From assembly GCA_029259185.1 (NCBI GenBank), contig JAPDJF010000030.1, positions 1-45,601 of the forward strand: a DNA stretch of 45,601 nucleotides. Reading direction: 5' to 3'. Position numbers and translations under genes: made by a program. This document shows, one piece after another, positions 5,124 through 42,505 of the stretch (within the stretch, counting starts at the first letter, position 1; every line of letters begins with the position of its first letter). The notes under the pieces were generated by a model, which ran no database searches, was not told the DNA's origin, and saw only the letters and a program-made list of their open reading frames with translations. Origin of the DNA: Hadesarchaea archaeon. Its GTDB lineage: Archaea; Hadarchaeota; Hadarchaeia; Hadarchaeales; WYZ-LMO6.

Positions 5124-6530
5124 ATGGGGTATAATTTTTTAAAAAGAAAGAAAACTTCTCTAGTGTTAGCCCGGTTGATTTCCGTCATTACACTCTCCAT
5201 CGTGCTGTCCTTGATTTTCCTCCCACCAGTTACTGGAGACTCAGTGGTTTATAGGATCCAAAAGACCTACGAGGTCTCCAACGAGAGTTCCACAACCGCA
5301 ACCAATGTGCAGGTGTTCATTTTCATCTTCGACAACGGTTATTTCGGATGGAACAACCAAACAATCCTCAACGAAGACATTCTACCCCTCGACTACACGA
5401 TCGAAGAGTGTGACGACAACCGAGTGTTGGAATTCTCACTCGGAACGCTTCGCCCGAATGAATCCCAGCTCATCTCCATAGAGCAAATCATCCGCGTCGA
5501 TGATGTGGAATTGACCATCGACCCATCAAAGGTGGGGGGTACTGTTCCTCCAGAGTTGTTTCCACTCACCCAGCCGGTTCCACACCTGTGGGAAAGTGAT
5601 GCCCCCGAGCTTGTGGAGAGGGTCAGAGAACTCACTGAGAACGAGAGTAACCTATACTGGAGCGCGAAAACCGTATTTGACTTCGTGAACGGATATCTCA
5701 CCTACCAACCCAGCGAGGCGGAACACAGCGCCCTTGAAGCATATCGTACTAGGGTGGGAGACTGTAGCGAATTCGCCCACCTCCTTATCGCCTTGATCAG
5801 GGCGATGGGTTTGCCTGCCAAACTCATCGTTGGATACGGATATCAACATGATAGGGAGACCGATCTCGAAGACATGGGGCATGCGTTTGCCTCCATCTAT
5901 CTACCAAGCGTTGGATGGCTCCCGGCCGACGAGACTTGGGGCTTGGGAGGGGAGTTCGGGGAGCTAAGCTGCGACCACCTGATCCTGTTCACGAGTGATG
6001 GATCCAACCTAGTGAGCAACGGACGGATCCGTATTCCGGGAGACAGCATAACCTACTCGTACATCGGTACGGATCCGCGAATCTCCCTCCACTTGCGAAG
6101 ATCGGAAATAACCCGCGAGGTTGCCCTTGAGACACAGCTCAGGACAGCGCCCGGATTAGAGGGAAAGACCCTCCATCTTTACGTAACGGTTAAGAACTCG
6201 GGGACAAGGAAGGTGGAAAACCTATGGATCTCGATTCATGCCGATGAGAACCATTTTGTCGTTCCCCCAGAGCATGTCCTGCCAAGTCTGGCTCCGAAGA
6301 GTGAGCAGACGATCACCTTCGAACTCGAGGTGAAAGAGAGTGTCAGGAGCGACCCGATTATGGTGAGGGTAGACTACGATACGTGCTATGGAAAATTTTC
6401 GTCTGAGAGTGAAGAGGTTCTGATCACCGTGAATATGCCCCAACTGCCCTCGGGAGGCGTGATGAGGTTACTCATTATCATGGGATTGATAGGGATCGTG
6501 GGTGCCATTGTAGCCCTGTTACGGCGGTAA
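5124..6530 (+). CDS. Secreted, membrane-anchored transglutaminase-fold protein
   Basis: The 468-residue protein has an N-terminal signal or anchor (basic KRKK, then hydrophobic residues 14-36), a beta-rich region (40-150), a transglutaminase/cysteine-protease core (about 165-275), a CARDB-like beta domain (about 320-440) and a C-terminal membrane helix (447-465) ending RR. The catalytic triad is visible: Cys214 in GDCSEF, His253 in GHAFASIY, Asp269 in LPADETW. The layout places the catalytic core outside the cell, tethered at the C-terminus. Archaeal members of this superfamily are of unknown substrate; peptide-bond hydrolysis or crosslinking of surface proteins is plausible. Start ATG 5124 is the only one that keeps the signal sequence. 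Confidence 0.8.
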   Translation: MGYNFLKRKKTSLVLARLISVITLSIVLSLIFLPPVTGDSVVYRIQKTYEVSNESSTTATNVQVFIFIFDNGYFGWNNQTILNEDILPLDYTIEECDDNRVLEFSLGTLRPNESQLISIEQIIRVDDVELTIDPSKVGGTVPPELFPLTQPVPHLWESDAPELVERVRELTENESNLYWSAKTVFDFVNGYLTYQPSEAEHSALEAYRTRVGDCSEFAHLLIALIRAMGLPAKLIVGYGYQHDRETDLEDMGHAFASIYLPSVGWLPADETWGLGGEFGELSCDHLILFTSDGSNLVSNGRIRIPGDSITYSYIGTDPRISLHLRRSEITREVALETQLRTAPGLEGKTLHLYVTVKNSGTRKVENLWISIHADENHFVVPPEHVLPSLAPKSEQTITFELEVKESVRSDPIMVRVDYDTCYGKFSSESEEVLITVNMPQLPSGGVMRLLIIMGLIGIVGAIVALLRR

Positions 6531-6594
6531 AAGCCCGATGACCCACTCCCCCTGCCCTCGGAGGTGGATTCGACGATAGGGTGACCTCCTCCCC

Positions 6595-6874
6595 TCGCTT
6601 TCGCAGGGGGGCTTCCGCTTTTCCCTCGCGCTTCGCGGAAGCTTTCCCCGCTTTAGCGGTGCTCTAGCCCCTGCTTCATCCACCGACCCGATCCCATCCC
6701 ATTAGGCGGTTACGGAGATCCAATGTCCATCCTACCTGCGCTGTGCAGGTCCACAGGCGTTGGGTTCGGGGTGGCCCTCTCCACCTCCCGGAAGAAATTG
6801 GAGGGGAAATAACGTGGTTTTCGGCTTTCATCCCCCAGCTCTCGCATGGAGGCTCCCCGCCGACAGAGTTAAAT
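6595..6874 (-). mobile_element. Short non-coding IS605-derived element (MITE-like)
   Basis: This 280-bp stretch has no gene but shares both ends with the decayed IS605 element at 41494-42477. Left side: CTGCTTCATCCACC (6671-6684) is identical to 41517-41530, GGTTACGGAG (6708-6717) to 41589-41598, and CACAGGCGTT (6752-6761) to 41609-41618, in the same order. Right side: 6823-6874 aligns with 42424-42475 over some 50 bases at roughly three quarters identity. In the transposase orientation these are the right end (with the omega-RNA-like tail of tnpB) and the left end. Long hairpins occur near 6612-6642 (GCTTCCGC / GCGGAAGC). It ends about 30 bases before the proteasome gene and brings the GTTAAAT that serves as its likely TATA box. 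Confidence 0.7.
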
Positions 6875-6904
6875 CTGAGGGAGCTGGAATTGAAAGTGAT
6901 CGGC

Positions 6905-7516
6905 ATGGAGTACTTCGCAGGCACGGTAGTGGGGTTGCGGGCTAAAGAGGGAATCGCCCTGGCCTCAGACACGCGTGGGGTCTCGTATTACATGGTGTTG
7001 AGCAAGCGAGCACGCAAACTCTTCAAATTGGATGAAAAAATAGGTGCTGCCTTCTCTGGAGCTCCGGGGGATATCCAGAGTCTGGTGAACTTCCTCAGAG
7101 TGGAGGCCAACATCTATCGACTGCAACATGGACGCACCATCTCCATCCGAGGATTGGCCCAAGTGGCATCGAACATCCTTCAAGGTCGAAGGTTGTTCCC
7201 ATACGTGCTTGAAGGGGTGATATCCGGAGTCGAGAGAGATGGGCCCCACCTTATCCTCATCGACCCTGCCGGCGGAAGGATCGAAGAGGAGGATTTCGCA
7301 AGCGGAGGTACGGGTGCTATGGTAGCATACGGGGTCTTGGAGAGAAATTACCGAAAAGGGATGAGCCTCCAAGAATGCGAGAAACTCGCCGCGGAGGCTA
7401 TTAAAACCGCTATAGAGCGGGATGCCGCGACTGGGGATAAGATAGTAGTCTCGATCATCGACGAAGGGGGGTACCGCGAGCTGTCCGATGAAGAGGTCGA
7501 GCGACTCCTCAAGTGA
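6905..7516 (+). CDS. psmB: Proteasome beta-type subunit, probably non-catalytic
   Basis: The 203-residue protein is a 20S proteasome beta-type subunit: GIALASDTR, KLFKLDEKIGAAFSG, NFLRVEANIYRLQHGR, LEGVISGVE and a C-terminal region of normal length. In active beta subunits a G-T-T-T-V-G start gives the catalytic Thr1. Here the sequence is F-A-G-T-V-V-G; anchoring on the conserved V4-G5, Lys9, Asp17 and Lys33 puts Gly, not Thr, at position 1, as in the inactive crenarchaeal beta1 type (P-A-T-A-V-G). A one-residue gap would instead leave a Thr1, so activity is unresolved. ATG 6905 is preferred; GTG 6896 is possible. The TATA-like GTTAAAT at 6869-6875 comes from the element upstream. Confidence 0.85.
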   Translation: MEYFAGTVVGLRAKEGIALASDTRGVSYYMVLSKRARKLFKLDEKIGAAFSGAPGDIQSLVNFLRVEANIYRLQHGRTISIRGLAQVASNILQGRRLFPYVLEGVISGVERDGPHLILIDPAGGRIEEEDFASGGTGAMVAYGVLERNYRKGMSLQECEKLAAEAIKTAIERDAATGDKIVVSIIDEGGYRELSDEEVERLLK

Positions 7517-21688: not shown

Positions 21689-22010
21689 ATATGGGGGTAC
21701 CGGCGAGCTGGTGGGCAGCTGCCGGGCGACTCCGTCGCCTGAGGAAATTCCATCCATCAAGTAGGCACCGCGAGCCCGTGAGGGCTAGACCGAGAGGTCT
21801 GACCCTGGCACAGAAACGACACCCACCGGTCCGTGGGCGATGATGCGGAAACGCTGAGGTCGGATCGGAGAGGGATGAAACGGCCAATCCGCGGGATGCA
21901 AGGGCAAGTTTCCATCGATGAGCGCCTACTCGAGATGGGTGGTGGCCCGCTGAGCCCAATGCTGCCTAAAACAGAAGATGGATTACGGCCAGCACGCCGG
22001 TGCCCCATAT
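21689..22010 (+). ncRNA. rnpB: RNase P RNA
   Basis: The RNA has the conserved P4 5' strand CTGAGGAAATTCCATCC (about 21739-21755) and the 3' conserved region ACAGAAGATGGATTACGGCC (21971-21990), which pair in RNase P. The ends ATATGGGG (21689-21696) and CCCCATAT (22003-22010) form P1, followed by TACCGGC against GCCGGTG. Size is about 322 nt, normal for archaeal type A RNase P RNA, the ribozyme that removes the 5' leader of pre-tRNAs. It sits between acs and the S26e-like gene. Confidence 0.95.
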
Positions 22011-40549: not shown

Positions 40550-40990
40550 ATGGCTTATGGTCAAGGAGGTTGGAGAAGAAGAAACATGTATTACCTCACC
40601 GGTCTGCCAGGATGGATGAGGTTCGGATATTTGACACAGACCGGACAAGTGCTTCAGCCTTCTCCAGCCCAAGTACCAGCGCAAATTTCAGTTCCCACTC
40701 ATGGGGACTGCGCTAATTTCAGGGATGGATTCTGCGCATTAAACGGTGCTGCTGTGGATCCTAGTGCCCCCGCGTGTCCAAGCTTCATACCGAAAAGTTC
40801 CACTCCAGCACCACAGACACCTTCAACGCACCCTATGTTTCAAGCATCAGCTGGTTTTCCTCCAGCACAAATGCCCCAGATACCTAAAGAGCAGGAAATC
40901 CAGATGTTGGAGTGGCAAGCAAGAATGGTGGAGCAACAATTAGAACAAATCAAAAAAAGGCTCGAAGAACTCAAAAAGGGGGTGAGATGA
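40550..40990 (+). CDS. Small Cys-containing protein with C-terminal coiled coil
   Basis: The 146-residue protein starts MAYGQGGWRRRNMYYLTGLP, a Gly/aromatic-rich motif seen in DUF5320-like archaeal proteins. Residues about 50-75 hold a four-Cys pattern (DCANFRDGFCALNGAAVDPS then ACPSF) that could bind a metal, then a Pro-rich linker and a C-terminal coiled coil (PKEQEIQMLEWQA to LEELKKG). ATG 40550 has a clear GGAG site; earlier starts do not. It is divergent from the MBL gene, with a TATA-like GTTTATATG at about 40503 usable in both directions. AT-richer than neighbours. Confidence 0.7.
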   Translation: MAYGQGGWRRRNMYYLTGLPGWMRFGYLTQTGQVLQPSPAQVPAQISVPTHGDCANFRDGFCALNGAAVDPSAPACPSFIPKSSTPAPQTPSTHPMFQASAGFPPAQMPQIPKEQEIQMLEWQARMVEQQLEQIKKRLEELKKGVR

Positions 40991-41419
40991 ATGCTGTTTG
41001 GAATGGATCCCTATGGCTGGATGGGTATGTACGGATATCCATACTGGGATTGGAGATATAGGTGGTTCCCATGGTTGCCCACATGGTGGTGGACGGGAAT
41101 GTACGATCTCATAACACCTTTTACGGGAACACCAGGAATGCCCTACGGCCAACATAGCATGTACGCTCTAACGGCTGCACCATGGACAACCTATACACCG
41201 TACTACGCGCCACCCTACAGCACGTACGCACCACCGGCAACAGCAATGCCGAGCATGACCTACCCATCGCCATATGCACCGCCACCTTACCCAACTAGCA
41301 TGGAGATCCCTCAAATTCCGAAGGAACAAGAAATACAAATGCTTGAAAGCCAGGCGGCGGTGCTCCAGCAACAATTAGATCAGATCAAGAAGAGGCTTGA
41401 AGAACTCAGCAAAATGTAG
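40991..41419 (+). CDS. Pro/Tyr-rich protein sharing the coiled coil of its neighbour
   Basis: The 142-residue protein has an N-terminal Trp/Tyr/Gly-rich part (WMGMYGYPYWDWRYRWFP), a low-complexity middle rich in Tyr, Pro, Thr and Ala (about 55-105) and a C-terminal coiled coil almost identical to the upstream gene (PQIPKEQEIQMLE, QQLDQIKKRLEEL). It starts at the ATG directly after that gene's stop with GGTGA upstream, so the two are made together and may pair through the shared coil. Function unknown; no cysteines remain. Confidence 0.65.
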   Translation: MLFGMDPYGWMGMYGYPYWDWRYRWFPWLPTWWWTGMYDLITPFTGTPGMPYGQHSMYALTAAPWTTYTPYYAPPYSTYAPPATAMPSMTYPSPYAPPPYPTSMEIPQIPKEQEIQMLESQAAVLQQQLDQIKKRLEELSKM

Positions 41420-41493
41420 GCCCCAATAGCTTGTCAACGAGTTCGACAAGTAGGGCGAAGGATGCTATGATACATATGAGCCCTCAGTGAACT

Positions 41494-42039
41494 ACCCAGC
41501 TCTCGCAGGGGGCTTCCTGCTTCATCCACCAGACTCGATTCCCTTCACAGGTGCGGTCATCCGCTTTCAGCCTTGCGGATCTGCGGGAGGTTACGGAGGT
41601 CTTGACCTCACAGGCGTTCGCTCGGGCCGTTCCAGCTCCCTATCGAATCCCTCAGGGACGTTCTGCGAAGTACCTCTCCTTCCCGCTTGACGATAACCCC
41701 CTTCACTTTTTCCTTAATCTTTCGGTGAAGCTTGATGGGGATCTACCGATTTTCGAGAGCACGAGCTTTCCGCTCTCAAGCTTGAAGCCCGACTGGTTGT
41801 AGTTCAGCGTCTTGAACCAGCCCCTTCCCTTGAACCGCAACTTCCCGATTTTTTTACCGCTCCGCTTTAGCCCAGCCAGAGCAAGCTTGGGTGTCCCCTT
41901 GCTTCAGCCTTATCCCCTTCTCATGCACAAAATTGAGTTCGGAGAGCAGGCGGTTGTAGAGCCACCTGCAAAGTGCCATGTGGTTCAGCTTCCGCTCGGC
42001 TGGCTTTGAAGGATACAGGCGGAACCTGTGGCTAAGCAC
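41494..42039 (-). pseudogene. tnpB relic
   Basis: From GTG 42039 the frame gives RFRLYPSKPAERKLNHMALC and RWLYNRLLSELN, the TnpB N-terminus. After a shift, KLRFKGRGWFKTLNYNQSGF and LESGKLVLSKIGR appear, then in a third frame IPIKLHRKIKEKVKGVIVKR. The RuvC and zinc-finger region is deleted; the final piece VDEAGSPLRELG, the usual TnpB tail that overlaps the right end, is still there. About 550 bases remain of some 1,200. Confidence 0.8.
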
Positions 42040-42413
42040 GCCCTTGTCCTTCCACATACCTTTTCAGCACATCGAGTGTTACCTGTCCAGTTGTGGCGAG
42101 AAAAATACGATGGAGACCAGAAAAACCATTTCCAGAGCTTTCTTTTTATCTACGCCGAGTTTCTCTCGATGCTATCGTTTTTATTGCAGACCTGGGTATG
42201 TCCAAGGTTGGCTTCGCCTTGAAGATCATGTGGAAGTGATCTTTGTCGCACTCCAAGTTTAGAACCTCGACTTGGAAACTCTCGCTTATCTCTCTCACTT
42301 TCTGCTTCAGCAAATCCACCACCTCGTTTTCAAGCACCTTTCTTCGGTATTTTACGACTTGAACTAGATGATACTGCAGGGCATGACTGAGTGTGCCCCC
42401 TTGTCCAACTCAT
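42032..42413 (-). pseudogene. tnpA (Y1/HUH transposase) relic
   Basis: From ATG 42413 pieces in three frames read HALQYHLVQVVKYRRKVLEN, ISESFQVEVLNLECDKDHFH (with the HUH motif HFH), PTLDIPRSAIKTIASRETRR, WKWFFWSPSYF and LATTGQVTLDVLKRYVEGQG with the catalytic Tyr. Order and size match IS200-type TnpA, broken by at least two or three frameshifts. It overlaps the tnpB start by eight bases. Confidence 0.8.
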
Positions 42414-42505
42414 TATATCCTGCGGCTCTCATCCCCTAGCTCACGCGAGGGGACTTCTCGCCGCAGAAGTTAAAAACCCCGTCGTTGAGTTTCTCCTCTG
42501 GGATC

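Follow-up and report, generated by a model that had tools for sequence, protein, structure and literature searches.

Genes and features at the psmB locus

The window, which refers here to the whole 45,601 nt stretch of DNA that was analysed, is contig C9 of an archaeal genome of 1.27 Mb (54 contigs, 95% complete; hereafter the source genome). A proteasome beta subunit gene, psmB, is preceded by a non-coding element and a gene for a transglutaminase-domain protein. A second, larger relic of the IS605 type lies further along the same contig. The features are as follows.

5124–6530, plus strand: transglutaminase/CARDB-domain protein, upstream neighbour of psmB (Pfam PF01841, E = 1.7e-20)
6581–6867, minus strand: non-autonomous IS605-type element (PATE, "type A"), 287 bp, non-coding, delimited by the boundaries common to aligned copies; 5' end (left end) at 6867 and 3' end (right end) at 6581
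6581–6584, minus strand: terminal TCAC
6581–6673, minus strand: right-end domain resembling the 3' region of an omega/re-RNA (covarying stems, match to model R1)
6591–6610, minus strand: right-end hairpin
6635–6642 paired with 6611–6618, minus strand: right-end stem (GCTTCCGC/GCGGAAGC)
6674–6759, minus strand: decayed tnpB 3'-end block, ending in GGTGGATGAAGCAGG and reading VDEAG in one frame, with no open frame
6822–6862, minus strand: left-end subterminal stem-loop, with an outer stem (6859–6862/6822–6825) and a hairpin (6832–6852), from RNAalifold and compensatory changes
6868–6874, plus strand: GTTAAAT, the IS605 target site outside the element and the psmB TATA box
6896–7516, plus strand: psmB, proteasome beta subunit (Pfam PF00227, E = 1.1e-49; orthologue comparison)
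41487–42468, minus strand: IS605-type relic with a broken Y1 tnpA and tnpB remnants, bearing the same kind of ends

Read on the minus strand, the order is TTTAAC, a left-end hairpin, a decayed tnpB 3' end, right-end stem-loops and TCAC. The minus-strand reading of GTTAAAT is (A)TTTAAC, the IS605 target and left cleavage site. A sequence-only reading of the window had recognized a non-coding segment before psmB and set its limits at 6595–6874. The segment stands; however, these limits cut off 14 nt of the right end and count GTTAAAT (6868–6874) as part of the element, where it is better regarded as a host target site outside 6581–6867.

A dispersed family of short elements

The limits, TTTAAC on the left and TCAC on the right, are near-uniform among aligned copies in the source genome and in other genomes. 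Almost every family copy, in at least five genomes, is flanked by TTTAAC or TTAAC on the left and has TCAC at the right end. A genome-wide search, as the sequence-only reading had proposed, did find further copies. Six copies of the psmB-side element are present in the source genome, three of which have both ends and the core, and the best other copies match at E values down to 3.5e-118. The copy at C2:71787–72089 is 91% identical to the psmB-side element and the copy at C29:2547–2821 is 81% identical; the remaining ones are without a right end (C2:62686–62917), reduced to the left half (C6:51545) or deleted for the core (C6:45666–45807). In the psmB copy, the left end has decayed, with GGGGAGCCTCC in place of GGGAAGTCCCC. 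A sister type of ~235 bp, whose right end is different (ending in GTAGTTCAC), occurs in the source genome and in G004. The psmB-side segment is real and non-random, and it belongs to this dispersed family.

The PATE copies are typically 138–332 bp in length, occur in multiple copies, are too short for a transposase and have no open frame of their own. The aligned family copies showed no terminal inverted repeats, target duplication or repeated flanks. They do not fit a classical MITE, which would have DDE-type terminal inverted repeats and usually a target duplication.

Related full-length copies are carried by other Hadesarchaea, and homologous elements were also found in genomes G022, G023 and G011. 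The Hadesarchaea isolate AUK037 (G004) contains 40 matches in a genome of 0.8 Mb, the best pair being 90% identical. The relative G015 contains two complete IS605 elements with an intact TnpA and a 398-aa TnpB, and their left ends are of the same type as those of the family. IS605-derived PATEs now extend to the Hadesarchaea, where they constitute a large repeat load in some genomes. A full-length family element was also observed in a contig titled Methanomethylicota (VGLU01000014.1), either from a cross-phylum transfer or from mis-binning.

Relation to IS605

The left end of the psmB element (6823–6873) aligns with the window relic at 42423–42474 (79% identity, E = 3e-5), and the tnpB 3'-end block aligns with the relic at 41516–41542 (89% across 27 nt, E = 0.004). 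When a family profile was compared with the relic, the two matches had E values of 7e-8 and 1.5e-7, respectively. The intact tnpB genes at L146 and L152 end in VIEAGSPAL and VVEAGSPAL at the position of the decayed tnpB block of the psmB element. The family therefore has ends in common with coding IS605 elements, at both blocks in the case of the window relic and as a left-end type in the case of the intact G015 elements. The psmB element and the relic do not share the ~90 nt that form the outermost part of the right end (6581–6673). Of the suggestion that both IS605 ends had been kept, the left end and the tnpB 3' block are upheld by the relic while the outermost ~90 nt are not.

The relic contains a Y1_Tnp match (42044–42385) with one internal stop. 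It is the best Y1 TnpA match in the source genome, and the two others are fragments. The last ~45 nt of the psmB element are also found in a second non-coding element of the source genome (C19:3603 and C8:47454). An IS607-like tnpA located beside the C8 element was considered as a parent and dropped, since the ends, the target and the Y1 TnpA neighbours fit IS605.

Stem-loops and the right-end domain

An RNAalifold analysis of ten full-length copies recovered the hairpins at both ends. Among the aligned copies, 92.8% of the cells in the named stems were paired compared to 41–51% when the stems were slid, and double changes were present in 12 cells compared to 4.8 in shuffles. Subterminal palindromes with compensatory changes are thus present at both the left and right ends. 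Another stem of the right-end domain, GCTTCCRC/GYGGAAGC, keeps its pairing across copies that have no TnpB. All ten A1 copies carry GGAAG at the 5' foot of the right-end hairpin; at the left-end hairpin, most have GAAG or a sequence close to it.

A covariance model of the right end of the family (R1) was searched in 150 archaeal genomes. Matches were found in Hadesarchaea, including the psmB copy, and at two places in the distant archaeon G135 (E = 1e-4). At one of these two places (L180), the match coincides with the 3' end of a TnpB gene that is intact (421 aa), and its hairpin overlaps the tnpB stop codon. Among the type-A right ends of Hadesarchaea, no adjacent tnpB was found; the distant match at L180 is the only one with such a neighbour. 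Both the tnpB 3' end and the right end contribute to re-RNAs (PMC8612924). Since the R1 match at L180 closes a tnpB gene that is intact, the right end of the psmB element is predicted to be a homologue of an omega/re-RNA region, and L180 provides independent support. The structured region is homologous to the tnpB 3' end together with the right end. The covariance modelling that had been called for has thus yielded stems that covary and that match an intact tnpB 3' end. As for the omega-RNA scaffold proposed from the sequence, the homology of the 3' half and the covarying stems agree with it, while the RNA itself is a prediction.

The TATA box and start codon of psmB

The GTG at 6896 sits 28 nt after the start of GTTAAAT. 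A GTG or TTG positioned 9 nt before the ATG (6905) is conserved in most f3 relatives. Since the pattern GTGATnnnATG downstream of the box is also common to psmB orthologues, GTG 6896 is probably the psmB start, and the message is likely to be leaderless from this codon.

For comparison, psmB orthologues were taken from 20 relatives in which the element is absent at that place. These share 59–74% protein identity and none is a near-identical empty site. An AT-rich box is present in 20/20, starting 28–41 nt before the ATG, as compared to 38 nt in the window. From a tblastn search, a transglutaminase-domain gene lies directly before psmB in 13 of the 20; in relatives of the same family, the gene upstream of psmB differs. 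Because every element-free orthologue has the box and 13 have the same upstream gene, the GTTAAAT box at psmB is judged to be older than the insertion. A same-genus empty site was also sought for the copy in G003, with no convincing flank match in G001 or G002.

The family mechanism leads to a similar view. Elements of the IS200/IS605 family, IS608 included, insert 3' of a target (TTAC for IS608) that stays in the left flank, and a guide on the 5' side of each hairpin serves IS608 in selecting its target (PMC5934647). By the IS608 rule, TTTAAC (GTTAAA on the plus strand) would be host DNA since the target remains in the left flank.

The window relic has its target, GTTAAA, at 42469–42474 before an MFS gene. 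In the best-matching MFS orthologue, from G003, the sequence GTTTAAG is found where the window has GTTAAAA, and GGGTTTAAGCCC instead of GTTAAAAACCCC at an equal distance. Judged on this orthologue, the situation looks the same as at psmB, with a box that would have pre-existed. The proposal that the left end of the relic furnished the MFS promoter is at odds with the comparable box already in place in G003.

The sequence-only reading had also treated the outer GTTAAAT as part of the element and as the source of the psmB TATA box; on such a view, the box would come along wherever the element inserts. This is very improbable. While 21 of 42 left ends have GTTAAA facing a possible start codon (ORF of at least 80 aa, 20–55 nt away), the same is true of 37% (43/117) of general GTTAA sites and 28% of random positions, amounting to no clear excess. 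Furthermore, the box is already present in the element-free psmB orthologues and in the G003 MFS orthologue, and the family mechanism keeps the target outside the element (PMC5934647). A promoter-donating element, which would carry the box within its own limits into a site that had none, was rejected from the psmB and MFS orthologue comparisons. What looks like a promoter brought by a transposon can stem from the choice of insertion site, when the transposase target is a TATA box on the opposite strand. A regulatory by-effect of the insertion, either by replacement of the BRE-position sequence with the purine-rich end of the element (GACAGA) or by stem-loops between the upstream gene and psmB that alter expression or uncouple read-through, is quite unlikely to have changed psmB expression. 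It draws on the last bases of the element, which adjoin the box, and on a gap of 374 nt to the upstream gene, compared to f3 relatives in which the box comes almost directly after the upstream stop codon; however, the box and its spacing to the psmB start are unaltered. The element may nonetheless have altered the BRE-position sequence and the distance to the upstream gene.

Origin and mobility

The preferred reading, to which we assign a probability of about 0.88, is that the psmB-side element is a PATE descended from a TnpB-bearing IS605 that lost its core, and that this PATE spread and inserted beside a pre-existing psmB TATA box. A TnpB-bearing IS605 would have lost its coding core to become a non-autonomous element of the IS200/IS605 family, keeping the requirements of a Y1 transposase (a subterminal hairpin at each end and the TTTAAC and TCAC cleavage sites) and retaining the tnpB 3' end with its omega/re-RNA-type stem-loops. 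The short element would then have spread to at least six places in the source genome, presumably as a single strand with Y1 TnpA supplied in trans. At psmB, insertion would have occurred 3' of TTTAAC, the minus strand of the pre-existing GTTAAAT TATA box, parting the box from the upstream gene with no change to the box or to its 28-nt distance from the start codon.

No intact Y1 TnpA was found in the source genome (95% complete), and none was detectable in the copy-rich genome G004. Current mobility is doubtful since a functional Y1 TnpA was found in neither genome; relatives or missing contigs could be the suppliers of TnpA and TnpB. There are 29 TnpB zinc-domain matches in the source genome, and among those inspected there was no intact TnpB with matching ends. 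The TnpB of contig C5 is frameshifted, that of C34 is missing half of the zinc-ribbon domain, and those of C1 and C11 have active-site motifs that appear changed by eye. In short, the family-type TnpBs inspected are broken and an intact cognate was not among them. Service in trans by TnpA or TnpB of the source genome is hypothetical.

With these observations, two other histories may be weighed. A full IS605 before psmB that lost its core by deletion in place, and was never mobile when short, would suit the decayed left end of the window copy (GGGGAGCCTCC for GGGAAGTCCCC), yet it is hardly credible given the colinear short copies with unrelated flanks in the source genome and in other genomes. 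An unlikely history is that transcription of the copies runs on the minus strand and that the resulting RNA is taken up by a TnpB made elsewhere, which cuts empty donor sites such that PATE copies are copied back. The right-end structure is homologous to the tnpB 3' end, the GCTTCCRC/GYGGAAGC pairing is kept in TnpB-less copies where TnpA would not be expected to need the stem, and HgcC, a weak match of the second element, is transcribed from T. kodakarensis transposase genes (PMC4247193). Against this, the source genome yielded no TnpB that is both intact and matched in its ends, with C34 and C5 as described above, and the right-end stems can be explained by inheritance from the parents or by upkeep for TnpA alone. 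It is rather unlikely that selection has kept the omega-RNA of a TnpB-less element, that TnpB protects the element and that TTTAAC settles it upstream of intact TATA boxes. If true, a TnpB-less element protected by the TnpB of other elements would parasitize TnpA as well as TnpB. Should the omega-RNA half be functional, the copies would provide a natural test of TnpB guides acting for elements without tnpB.

Two TnpB-like genes of the source genome were observed in passing. On contig C1 (L156:1923–3008), a 361-aa TnpB has VIVIGDLKG at the expected catalytic glutamate and is possibly nuclease-dead. On contig C11 (25523–26956; L157:1024–2457), a 477-aa TnpB-like ORF lies between Nop5-like and fibrillarin genes, and its RuvC motifs seem altered by eye (GVGINERS). 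Homologues of the latter with 60–75% identity occur in four other Hadesarchaea genera, and the flanks that were fetched contained no fibrillarin or Nop match.

Comparison with known elements

The segment at 6581–6867 is best classed as a new PATE, sharing every structural feature tested with the Haloquadratum PATEs. Like those of Haloquadratum walsbyi (PMC3119063), it is non-coding, has near-terminal palindromes and no terminal inverted repeats, has a short conserved targeting sequence outside one end, and probably derives from an IS605-type element by core deletion. The H. walsbyi PATE HqIRS71 also retains part of the transposase C-terminal coding region (PMC3119063). In contrast, the psmB element belongs to another archaeal phylum, has other sequences and uses the target TTTAAC, and an omega-RNA aspect is absent from the H. 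walsbyi PATE account (PMC3119063).

As in IS608 and ISDra2, insertion is 3' of a short target that remains in the left flank, a hairpin lies close to each end, the right cleavage site is of the TCAA/TCAC type, and the right hairpin has a GAAT/GAAG-type guide at its foot. The psmB element differs in having neither tnpA nor tnpB and in its target, TTTAAC as opposed to TTAC or TTGAT. Its 3' half is the counterpart of the tnpB 3' end and right end, as in the ISDra2 TnpB re-RNA/omega-RNA (PMC8612924); unlike the ISDra2 re-RNA locus, tnpB is absent and the RNA is predicted. In kind, the element is ordinary. Its twists are an insertion directly upstream of TATA boxes and an omega-RNA-type structure kept without tnpB.

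A second non-coding element and other features

The second dispersed non-coding element of the source genome is found at C19:3603–~3985 (L025) and C8:~47120–47493 (L026). Both are full-length matches to Rfam HgcC (RF00062), with E values of 0.0017 and 0.022 that fall below the gathering score. The psmB-type copies matched no Rfam family, HgcC included, although the last ~45 nt are shared with the C19/C8 element. Transposase genes of T. kodakarensis give rise to HgcC RNA (PMC4247193), so that HgcC may represent the RNA of a tnpB right end. Beside the C8 element (L026:1037–1441) is an IS607-type serine-recombinase-like frame that is apparently frameshifted, as judged by eye.

Elsewhere in the window, a 103-nt direct repeat (40871–40973 and 41306–41408, 72% identity) is shared by two adjacent ORFs, in which it encodes similar helical tails, and an archaeal RNase P RNA (Rfam RF00373, 223 bits) is located at 21703–21997.
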